A stretch of 64,000 bases of DNA from Wenjunlia vitaminophila DSM 41686 (GTDB lineage: Bacteria > Actinomycetota > Actinomycetes > Streptomycetales > Streptomycetaceae): the NCBI RefSeq assembly GCF_000380165.1, contig NZ_KB904651.1, forward strand, positions 1 through 64,000, read 5' to 3'. The translations under genes were made by a program, and so were the position numbers. This document shows positions 8,182 to 57,194 of this stretch, in pieces. Each line of letters begins with the position of its first letter. Position 1 is the stretch's first letter. Under the pieces are notes generated by a model. The model did no database searches. It saw nothing but the letters and a program-made list of their open reading frames with translations, and had not been told where the DNA came from.

Positions 8182-8234
8182 TCCTCCCGGGTCGGTCGGC
8201 GCGCCCCGCGGCGCGCGCGTTTCACGTACCCGGG
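8182..8234 (-). promoter_or_regulatory. Expression platform masking the glyA ribosome site
   Basis: Reading the minus strand, the sequence just after the aptamer contains CCCGGGT (from 8234 to 8228), which pairs perfectly with ACCCGGG (8192 to 8186). The GGG of the latter is the beginning of the GGGAGGA ribosome-binding site (8188 to 8182). Between them lies a local GC hairpin. The simplest reading is a helix that hides the ribosome site unless ligand holds the 3' strand of the aptamer; this is inference from pairing. Confidence 0.55.
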
Positions 8235-8333
8235 GCCCAGGCGGACGGCACCGCGGAGAGGTCACGGAGTCGTGCTCCGCCATGCCGCTTCCCCGTGGTC
8301 GCTTCCACGTTCGCCAGTCGCGACGCCTCCACC
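8232..8333 (-). ncRNA. ZTP (pfl) riboswitch upstream of glyA
   Basis: On the minus strand the leader contains, in order, the pfl/ZTP aptamer elements: GTCGCGACTGGCG (about 8330-8312), GAACGTGG and CGACCACGGGGAAGC (about 8312-8285) forming the small GUGG/CCAC hairpin, a variable stem, and the conserved 3' CCGCCTGGGC (8244-8235). This family binds ZMP/ZTP, the signal of formyl-folate shortage, and is well known in front of glyA and purine or folate genes in actinobacteria. The call rests on conserved core residues; no covariance model was run. Confidence 0.85.
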
Positions 8334-54957: not shown

Positions 54958-56541
54958 TCACTCCCACTCGATGGTGCCCGGCGGCTTGCTGGTGACGTCC
55001 AGCACCACGCGGTTCACCTGCGGCACCTCGTTGGTGATCCGGGTGGAGATCCGGGCCAGCACGTCGTACGGCAGCCGGGACCAGTCGGCGGTCATGGCGT
55101 CCTCGGAGGAGACCGGGCGCAGCACCACCGGGTGCCCGTAGGTGCGGGCGTCCCCCTGGACCCCGACCGACCGGACGTCGGCGAGCAGCACCACCGGGCA
55201 CTGCCAGATGTCCCGGTCGAGGCCGGCCCGGGTCAGTTCCTCCCGGGCGATGGCGTCGGCCTTGCGCAGCAGTTCCAACCGCTCCGCCGTGACCTCGCCG
55301 ACGATCCGGATGCCCAGTCCCGGACCGGGGAACGGCTGCCGCCAGACGATCTCCGCGGGCAGGCCGAGCTCCTCGCCGACCTTGCGCACCTCGTCCTTGA
55401 ACAGCCGGCGCAGCGGCTCGACGAGCTGGAACTGGAGGTCGTCGGGGAGTCCGCCCACGTTGTGGTGTGACTTGATGTTGGCGGTGCCGGTGCCGCCCCC
55501 GGACTCCACCACGTCGGGGTAGAGGGTGCCCTGGACCAGGTACTCGACCTGCGCCCCGTGCGCCCCGGCCTCCGCGACCACCTCGGCGGCGGCCTGCTCG
55601 AAGACCCGGATGAACTCCCGGCCGATGATCTTGCGCTTCTGCTCCGGGTCGCTGACGCCGGCCAGCGCGGTGAGGAACCGCTGCTGTGCGTCCACGACCT
55701 TCAACTGGACGCCGGTGGCGGCCACGAAGTCCTTCTCCACCTGCTGGGGCTCGCCCTCGCGCAGCAGCCCGTGGTCGACGAAGACGCAGGTGAGTTGGTC
55801 CCCCACGGCCCGCTGCACCAGGGCGGCGGCCACCGCGGAGTCCACTCCGCCGGACAGTCCGCAGATCACCCGCTTGTCGCCCACCTGGGCACGGACGGCC
55901 CGCACCGACTCCTCCACCACGTTCTGCGTGGTCCAGGACGGCGTGAGGCCGGCGCCCCGGTACAGGAAGTGCTCCAGGAGCTGCTGTCCGTGGCTGGAGT
56001 GCATCACCTCGGGGTGGTGCTGGGTGCCGTAGAGCCGGGCCTCGTCGTTCTCGAACGCCGCCACCGGCGCGCGCTCGGAGGTGGCGGTCACCACGAAGCC
56101 CTCGGGCGCGACGGTGCAGGCGTCGCCGTGCGACATCCACACCGACTGCTCCTCGGGGGTGCCCTGGAACAGCGTCGAACCGCCCCGGGTCACGGTCAGC
56201 GCGGTGCGCCCGTACTCGCGCTGACCGGTGTTGGCGACGGTGCCGCCGAGGGCCAGCGCCATGGCCTGGAAGCCGTAGCAGATCCCGAGGACGGGGACGC
56301 CGGCCTGGAACAGTTCGGGGCCCATGGCGGGGGCGTCGTCCGCGTAGACCGAGGCCGGTCCGCCGGACAGGATGATGGCCTTCGGGTTCCTGGCCAGCAT
56401 CTCGGACACCGGCATGGAGTGCGGAACGATCTCGCTGTAGACGCGGGCCTCCCGCACCCGGCGGGCGATGAGCTGGGCGTACTGGGCCCCGAAGTCGACG
56501 ACGAGGACCGTGTCGGGGACGGGCGGGGGCGCTGCGGCCAC
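54958..56541 (-). CDS. guaA: GMP synthase (glutamine-hydrolysing)
   Basis: A 527-residue GuaA that aminates XMP to GMP. The class I glutaminase domain has [18 protein letters not shown], the catalytic Cys in [15 protein letters not shown] and the His-Glu pair in QHHPEVMHS. The synthetase domain has the PP-loop [13 protein letters not shown] and VDHGLLR, and the C-terminal dimerisation domain ends in PPGTIEWE as expected. With PurN and PurH it completes the link from IMP to guanine nucleotides. ATG 56541 starts a short Ala/Pro lead before the fold. Confidence 0.97.
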
Positions 56542-56643: not shown

Positions 56644-56672
56644 TTGGTCGGAGTGCGGGCCTCGGGCATACT
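56644..56672 (+). promoter_or_regulatory. Promoter of the aroQ leader
   Basis: TTGGTC (56644-56649) and CATACT (56667-56672), spacing exactly 17, are good -35 and -10 matches. Six bases after the -10 is the ATG of the leader peptide, so transcription would start at or next to the A of the ATG, giving a leaderless mRNA. Confidence 0.65.
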
Positions 56673-56678
56673 GGAGCC

Positions 56679-56747
56679 ATGTCGCGCTTTGCAGATGTCT
56701 TTACCTATGGCACCGGATGGTCCGGCTGCCATGGTGACGCTGCGTGA
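56679..56747 (+). CDS. 22-residue aromatic-rich leader peptide
   Basis: The frame MSRFADVFTYGTGWSGCHGD plus two Ala ends at TGA 56745-56747. Within 14 residues it has Phe4, Phe8, Tyr10 and Trp14. No ribosome site of normal spacing precedes it, but the promoter places the ATG at +1, as is frequent for leader peptides in actinomycetes. It is followed by two hairpins and then a chorismate mutase gene, the structure of a transcription attenuator. The role is inferred, not proven. Confidence 0.55.
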   Translation: MSRFADVFTYGTGWSGCHGDAA

Positions 56748-56800
56748 GCGACTGACTCACCGACTTCGTACCGGCGCCCCGGGCCAACTGGCCCGGGGCG
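56743..56800 (+). terminator. Attenuator-type hairpins between leader peptide and chorismate mutase
   Basis: GTGAG (56744-56748) pairs with CTCAC (56756-56760) around the leader stop codon. Then a perfect 12-bp stem, 56775-56786 with 56789-56800, is followed by TTCGTCGTCC. The second hairpin has the shape of an intrinsic terminator and lies 107 bases before the chorismate mutase start. Confidence 0.6.
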
Positions 56801-56906
56801 TTCGTCGTCCTCCGGGCCGCACGGTCCGGGACGCCCACGGGTTGGCCTCGGCACCCACGACGGTTCCCGGGCAGCGCCCCGGGAACGGACCCCAGGAGCG
56901 GACGAC

Positions 56907-57194
56907 ATGGACACGCAGGTCATGGACGAGCAGGTCATGGACGAGCAGCGGGCGGCGCAGATCATCGCCGGTGCCCGGGAACGGATCGACGACCTGGACG
57001 CGCGGCTGATCGCCCTGATCCAGCAACGGATGGAGGTCTCGGCCGAAGTGCAGCGCGCACGCATGGCCTCCGGCGGGCGCCGGCTCTCCCTCAACCGGGA
57101 GATGGAGATCCTCAACCGGTACAACGACGTGCTGGGCAGGCCCGGCACCACCTTGGCGATGACTCTCCTCGAGTTGTGCAGGGGCAGGGTCTGA
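56907..57194 (+). CDS. Chorismate mutase (AroQ class)
   Basis: A 95-residue helical protein matching the AroQ fold: ARERIDDLDARLIALIQQRMEVSAEVQRARMASGG with the Arg and Lys/Arg residues that bind chorismate, followed by REMEILNRYNDVLG. It converts chorismate to prephenate, the first step toward Phe and Tyr. The N-terminus carries two copies of a 15-base unit encoding VMDEQ, giving in-frame ATGs at 56907, 56922 and 56937; the first has GGAGCGGACGAC upstream. A preceding leader peptide and hairpins suggest attenuation control. Confidence 0.9.
   Translation: MDTQVMDEQVMDEQRAAQIIAGARERIDDLDARLIALIQQRMEVSAEVQRARMASGGRRLSLNREMEILNRYNDVLGRPGTTLAMTLLELCRGRV

Follow-up and report, generated by a model that had tools for sequence, protein, structure and literature searches.

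A putative leaderless Phe/Tyr-coded transcription attenuator ahead of the chorismate mutase gene in Streptomycetaceae

Upstream of the monofunctional chorismate mutase (CM) gene of Wenjunlia vitaminophila DSM 41686, a short leader open reading frame (ORF) is accompanied by a set of hairpins, and its frame, its codons and the hairpins are conserved in the family Streptomycetaceae. In our reading, to which we give a probability of roughly 0.86, this element acts as a ribosome-mediated transcription attenuator of the trp/phe type which reports the charging of tRNA-Phe and tRNA-Tyr. Phenylalanine and tyrosine are the amino acids in which the CM branch ends. While attenuators of this kind are already known, the instance, the constraint on its codons and its spread appear to be new.

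Results and Discussion

Layout of the locus

The window analyzed here is a stretch of 64,000 nt (contig NZ_KB904651.1, positions 1 to 64,000), and all parts of the element are located on its plus strand. A -35 hexamer, TTGGTC (56644-56649), and a -10 hexamer, CATACT (56667-56672), can be read directly from the sequence, agree with the sigma-70 consensus at 3/6 and 4/6 positions, respectively, and are separated by the 17 bases that the earlier note had given, with six further bases leading to an ATG. Generic scanners called neither a promoter nor a terminator at the element. Among 196 elements, a TTG precedes the -10 region at a spacing of 17, 18 or 19 nt in 37, 55 and 32 cases (124/196), and at any other spacing between 10 and 24 nt in at most one. 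The -10 region, mostly CATACT, ends 5-7 nt ahead of the start codon at the loci obtained by DNA searches, and so transcription probably begins at the start codon; the transcript would then be leaderless, with its first base at the ATG (56679).

The leader ORF (56679-56747) comprises 22 codons and encodes MSRFADVFTYGTGWSGCHGDAA, followed by a stop codon, as seen by direct reading and from the conservation of its frame. As previously stated, it contains two Phe, one Tyr and one Trp residue (Phe4, Phe8, Tyr10 and Trp14). The codons TTT ACC TAT GGC for Phe8, Thr9, Tyr10 and Gly11 (56700-56711), marked by codon conservation, form the putative sensor core. Folding of 88 elements places a hairpin within the ORF (hairpin 1, 56705-56734), consisting of arm 1 (56705-56717), a loop formed by the Trp codon (56718-56720), and arm 2 (56721-56734). 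Downstream, a small hairpin GTGAG/CTCAC holds the stop codon (56744-56760; direct reading and folding), and the putative terminator hairpin CGCCCCGGGCC-AACT-GGCCCGGGGCG is found at 56775-56800. CM, a protein of 95 amino acids (56907-57194; NF005894, TIGR01808) and the sole PF01817 match in its genome, starts 106 bases past the terminator stem and is preceded by a Shine-Dalgarno-like AGGAG (56894-56898, by eye). The divergent neighbor on the minus strand, guaA for GMP synthase (54958-56541, by annotation match), lies outside the element. None of the Rfam covariance models reached its gathering score at the element, including riboswitch and T-box models. Elsewhere in the window, a ZMP/ZTP riboswitch scores above the gathering threshold at 8228-8331 on the minus strand.

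Distribution within the Streptomycetaceae

The 22-residue peptide was found in 12 of 61 genomes including its own, all belonging to the family of the window, the Streptomycetaceae. At E 0.01, a profile of these 12 peptides, with 22 candidates scored per genome, hit 235 of the 394 genomes of the family, many of them with weak scores. At the DNA level, we used a covariance model (R1) which was built from 58 elements, starts six bases before the core and makes no use of the start codon. Applied to 394 genomes of the class, R1 gave some match at E 0.01 in 172; among the matches listed, 39 of 40 family genomes reach an E-value of 1.5e-17 or lower, and the remaining one is G139, a genome without a CM match. 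The exact core pattern occurs in 87 of 249 family genomes and in 13 of 17 genera; a reversed pattern used as control gave none among the rows listed. The core pattern was also found in at least 119 stretches of named genomes, with Streptomyces, Streptacidiphilus, Actinacidiphila and Yinghuangia among the matches listed. All 30 + 119 loci found at the DNA level, 145 of them distinct, carry the element. In 144 of the 149, CM follows on the same strand at a distance of up to 600 nt, and for the other five the sequence stops no more than 278 nt beyond the element.

Fourteen family genomes lacking the exact core were checked. Nine have this CM gene; in the other five, G014, G026, G022, G007 and G139, no match to this CM was obtained at E 0.001. 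The best CM loci of the nine all bear a diverged element, for example with FSYGTG, and loci L050 (genus g10), L305 and L307 (g5) and L311 (g4) extend the element to 16 of the 17 sampled genera. In genus g14, neither of the two genomes examined gave a match to CM. G020 has a further, weaker CM match (L313) that falls outside these nine best loci. The check for conservation in relatives that the earlier note had suggested thus turned out positive, since the peptide frame, hairpin 1 and the terminator hairpin are kept upstream of CM. As far as sequence can tell, neither of the two refuting conditions of the note was encountered: frame and hairpin are conserved, and the position of the -10 region favors a transcription start at the ATG over one downstream of 56747.

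Frame and codons of the leader ORF

The distance from the start codon to the core is a multiple of three at 145 of 145 distinct loci from the DNA-level searches, which are blind to the start codon; the chance expectation is one third, although related species are non-independent and some species are also present in the protein-found set. This result indicates that the frame is under selection. The distances range from 18 to 33 nt, apart from a distance of 12 nt in L156, where the start pick is doubtful and the in-frame result is unchanged. Of the 88 protein-found elements, 87 have their start codon in frame, and the exception, L011, goes back to a wrong ATG chosen by the automatic rule, an in-frame ATGTTC being visible by eye. 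The leader ORF is apparently translated.

For codon counts, elements were located by their place upstream of CM with up to five substitutions from the core. This gave 88 protein-found, 30 model-found and 9 CM-found distinct elements with a union of 118, none picked by the exact pattern; the model-found set is not sequence-blind, since R1 was built from elements carrying TTT and TAT. Both TTT and TAT are present in 116 of the 118, the remaining two reading TTC-TAT and TTC-CAG. Both codons are rare in 22 ORFs of the window, where TTT makes up 2 of 247 Phe codons (~1%) and TAT 5 of 221 Tyr codons (~2%). The choice of TAT is partly explained by hairpin 1, in which its A and T are paired. The wobble position of the core Phe codon (56702) holds a T in 116/118, and no pairing was found that requires this T. 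At the amino acid level, F-T/S-Y-G is nearly invariant across the family, with the Tyr codon lost in L310 (FTQGAG), and the position two codons before the core Phe is Phe or Tyr in 98/118. At the Trp position, Trp was found in 26 of 118 elements, along with Pro (69), Gly (9) and Arg (7). On codon conservation, the predicted sensor codons are those for Phe and Tyr; of the end products proposed in the earlier note as sensed amino acids, these two hold (116/118) and Trp does not. A Trp sensor was rejected because the Trp codon is placed at the loop of hairpin 1, because a ribosome stalled there would cover arm 2, and because the codon is not conserved. The near-invariant pair of TTT and TAT makes the element a clean test case for the selection of slow codons in attenuators.

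Hairpins

Hairpin 1, the 5′ arm of which overlaps the Tyr codon, folds in 88 of 88 elements with a mean energy of -18.4 kcal/mol versus -11.2 kcal/mol for shuffled sequences, and is below all 30 shuffles in 62/88. Where the loop has changed to CCCGGCCCGCCGG (L088 and others), the stem is preserved by a shift in register, and it still folds where the end of the peptide has changed frame (L044, L104, L109). The covariation test detected no pair of hairpin 1 with changes on both sides. Downstream of the core, judging from these comparisons, it is the predicted RNA structure rather than the peptide that is conserved.

With hairpin 1, the predicted 1:2 / 2:3 / 3:4 layout of attenuators of the trp type is complete. 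The small hairpin around the stop codon, noted earlier, is present, but the stronger hairpin 1, which had been overlooked, is the competing structure relevant to attenuation. Some hairpin touches the stop codon in 88/88 elements, with an energy barely better than that of shuffled sequences and below all 30 shuffles in only 7/88; it was therefore rejected as the main switch and retained as a possible spacer, and is the weakest part of the original observation.

Downstream of the leader ORF, an uninterrupted stem of at least 10 pairs was found in 84 of 88 protein-found, 30 of 30 model-found and 9 of 9 CM-found elements, all located without reference to the terminator; the four others of the 88 lack ten consecutive pairs, so that interrupted stems do exist. 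The hairpin of the window had been described as a perfect 12-bp stem; the hairpin is there, with 11 Watson-Crick pairs and two possible flanking G-U pairs in place of the 12. Neither the scanners nor the folding of the elements revealed a T-run after the stem. For hairpin 1 and the terminator hairpin taken jointly, cells with changes on both sides of a pair number 20 versus 6.2 in shuffles (0/500). All four pairs changed on both sides fall in the terminator hairpin, and this number of pairs is itself unexceptional (reached by 133/500 shuffles). With elements located by the core alone, 91 of the 94 perfect stems found at the element carry the sequence GCCCCGG on the arm, versus 1 of 113 other perfect inverted repeats at the same named loci. 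Its retention, to which the shared ancestry of the elements also contributes, suggests a second constraint on the 5′ arm of this hairpin (arm 3). We infer that the hairpin at 56775-56800 acts as a terminator between leader and CM.

A candidate antiterminator

The proposed antiterminator pairs arm 2 with arm 3 (~56719-56735 with ~56770-56785). For masked folding of 88 elements, the edge of the ribosome was stepped along the leader, and this edge was taken to lie ~13 nt beyond the point where the A-site codon begins. In this set, which also served for the folding of hairpin 1 and of the stop-codon hairpin, was chosen for a GCGCCCC downstream and excludes L044 by that rule, the 2:3 helix forms in 88/88 when the edge lies 13-22 nt beyond the beginning of TTT, in 19/88 at an edge of 25 and in none at 28 and beyond. 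Such a range suits stalls at the Phe, Thr and Tyr codons, as well as at Gly11, and excludes Trp. At equilibrium in the absence of a ribosome, the 2:3 helix still beats hairpin 1 in 81/88, and the complete terminator hairpin beats the 2:3 helix in 88/88, which implies that a switch built from these helices must be kinetic. Kinetic folding is typical of known attenuators.

The arm 2:arm 3 duplex has an energy of -20.7 versus -17.7 with a shuffled arm 2 (0/50). When partners were permuted among species, pairing was as good (-20.65, 51/200), and a shuffled arm 2 placed in context still paired over at least 9 bp in 1382 of 1760 trials. Within the family, no pair of the 2:3 helix has changed on both sides. 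Across families, covariation of this helix is weakly indicated with p=0.041 for 32 distinct flank combinations, the flanks of the other families having been typed by hand; at loci of families f39 and f33, both flanks have changed together, GAGTCCGG being paired with CCGGGCTC. The complementarity in 88/88 elements would allow a mutually exclusive antiterminator, to which covariation lends weak support.

Proposed mechanism and alternative explanations

From the arrangement of these parts we infer where transcription starts, how the ribosome stalls, how the antiterminator forms, in which order the helices fold and how termination comes about, as follows. Transcription would start at the ATG, and a ribosome would load on the leaderless 5′ end. 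If Phe and Tyr are plentiful, it would pass TTT-ACC-TAT, proceed to the stop codon and cover arm 2, so that the terminator (3:4) could form at 56775-56800 and CM would be left untranscribed. If either amino acid is short, the ribosome would wait at TTT (56700) or TAT (56706) and cover arm 1, whereupon arm 2 would be free to pair with arm 3 and RNA polymerase would continue into CM. In the absence of translation, hairpin 1 would form first and termination would be the default. The conservation of frame, codons, hairpin 1 and terminator hairpin bears out the layout of ribosome-mediated attenuation that had been proposed. Chorismate, Phe and Tyr serve Streptomyces as precursors of many products, so that removal or retuning of such an attenuator may offer a simple handle on precursor supply.

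Of the explanations weighed against this mechanism, the one deserving most attention, though unlikely, is a variant compatible with its remaining steps, in which attenuation works by another competing helix or by a factor instead of the proposed 2:3 pairing. It draws on the fact that this pairing is backed by complementarity and hardly by covariation; it is opposed by the possibility of the helix in 88/88 elements, by the joint change of the flanks GAGTCCGG and CCGGGCTC in f39 and f33, and by the conservation of arm 3 far beyond that of nearby inverted repeats. A sensor of the TnaC type, in which the nascent FTYG and its neighbors would bind a ligand in the ribosomal tunnel and stalling by the peptide would set the terminator, is improbable. 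TnaC-type peptides are defined by conserved nascent-chain residues up to a stall site near the C-terminus. The nearly invariant F-T/S-Y-G would agree with this, but the C-terminus varies by substitution and frameshift (L104 and L109 end with VRLPWSCCLS.., many others with SGCHGRAA), the part before the core varies between 6 and 11 codons, or down to 4 if the doubtful start of L156 is right, and conservation reaches the level of codons (TTT, TAT), for which an arrest peptide has no need.

Since every base is conserved in large parts of the core, wobble positions included, one might also think of a riboswitch or a repressor site in which an ORF is present by coincidence. The 145/145 in-frame starts at variable distance argue for translation, and at the element all Rfam families stay below their gathering scores; this reading is slightly less probable still than an arrest peptide. 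Least credible of all is the reading in which an ORF arose by chance within a small regulatory RNA or within an ordinary terminator for transcription coming from upstream: judged by the layout, the leader could end as an RNA of ~120 nt, yet the element has its own conserved promoter, a frame under selection and a constant place before CM. Attenuation by the ribosome, with Phe and Tyr as the sensed amino acids, is thus the reading we prefer.

Comparison with known attenuators

In C. glutamicum, the attenuator of aroR-aroF was reportedly described by Neshat in 2014. The pheA gene of E. coli encodes a bifunctional CM-prephenate dehydratase, and its leader pheL is not known to be leaderless or to have a Tyr core; the likeness to our element is one of description. 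According to the accessible part of a review, pheL-pheA has in common with the element a Phe-coded leader and a terminator before a gene with chorismate mutase activity (PMC11802643). The aroR-aroF leader likewise belongs to an actinomycete and carries Phe-Tyr-Phe ahead of an aromatic gene, as far as the accessible parts of two papers describe it (PMC11802643, PMC4046766). It differs in controlling the DAHP synthase gene aroF and not CM, and, according to the same review, it is derepressed by Phe limitation, the availability of Tyr being without effect (PMC11802643); here, too, the likeness is by description, without sequence alignment.

Closer in phylogeny are the trpL, leuL and ilvL leaders of Streptomyces, leaderless leader peptides of the same group that serve other amino acids and other genes (accessible parts of PMC8079986 and PMC1262725). 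In S. lividans, 17% of the transcripts and several leader peptides are reported to be leaderless; eight leaders are listed, none of them at CM, and the word “chorismate” occurs 0 times in the main text, as far as this source is accessible (PMC8079986). A comparative study of 2005 found no conserved RNA structures ahead of Phe/Tyr operons in Actinobacteria, as its accessible part states (PMC1262725). Our element, if it is an attenuator, would fill this gap at the chorismate branch point. The accessible text of PMC7247131 covers ribosomal-protein leaders, and the element is unmentioned in that of PMC1173090 and PMC8914203. An attenuator at a CM gene was not found in the open-licence literature searched, a scope outside which most subscription papers lie, and to the extent that these partly accessible sources allow, the former statement that none is described for this gene holds within the same scope.

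Aromatic leaders in other actinomycete families

A diverged element was also detected before CM in three other actinomycete families. From the R1 matches, 20 of the better hits outside the family of the window were fetched; many of the 172 matches cover the terminator part only. Five of the 20 are located before CM, ten represent a leader before a DAHP synthase gene, one (L143) is a terminator matched on the opposite strand next to a leader of this kind, and four (L147, L149, L151, L152) look like chance terminators and were discarded. The five CM leaders contain YFYYGTG, FFYYGTG, FFYGHR, FFFYGSG and YFYGTG. Of these loci, L133, L134 and L139 show a clear hairpin 1 and L142 a short one, and in L144 the folding did not resolve it.

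The leaders before DAHP synthase, the enzyme of the common first step of the aromatic pathway, all belong to family f19. At ten loci, MQRNFWRFYGYRP..ALR, ending at a stop codon, or relatives thereof follow close behind a -10 region, and an eleventh is found on the other strand of L143 (L135-L138, L140, L141, L143, L145, L146, L148, L150). Like the CM leaders, they are leaderless by the position of the -10 region and have a Phe/Tyr core, mostly TTT TAT GGC, and a terminator; they differ in the gene downstream and in a Trp, which is present in 10 of the 11, the leader usually reading FWRFYGY. The downstream gene is a DAHP synthase in 11/11, at least ~79% identical to that of L135 (NF006421/TIGR01361). 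R1 also matches unrelated terminators, so that matching by the same model does not establish a shared ancestry of the CM and DAHP synthase leaders. We tentatively consider a single aromatic-attenuator cassette of actinomycetes with a near-obligatory sensor of the rare TTT and TAT, which would sense Phe and Tyr where it precedes CM, in Streptomycetaceae and their relatives, and additionally Trp where it precedes DAHP synthase, in another family, and in which codon choice may tune sensitivity; this idea is more doubtful than not.

In the genome of the window itself, inspection by eye of ~800 bases ahead of the DAHP synthase gene and of the prephenate dehydratase gene revealed no such leader. On the minus strand of locus L272 (contig C18 of this genome), a leader MRALTTSSWWWPLPEAASLLTRA, ended by a stop codon and followed by a GC hairpin, starts from ~2983 of the reverse complement. 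The ORF behind it resembles the anthranilate synthase TrpE by eye and is divergent from a class II DAHP synthase gene; with its WWW, this is probably a Trp leader of the known type ahead of trpE.
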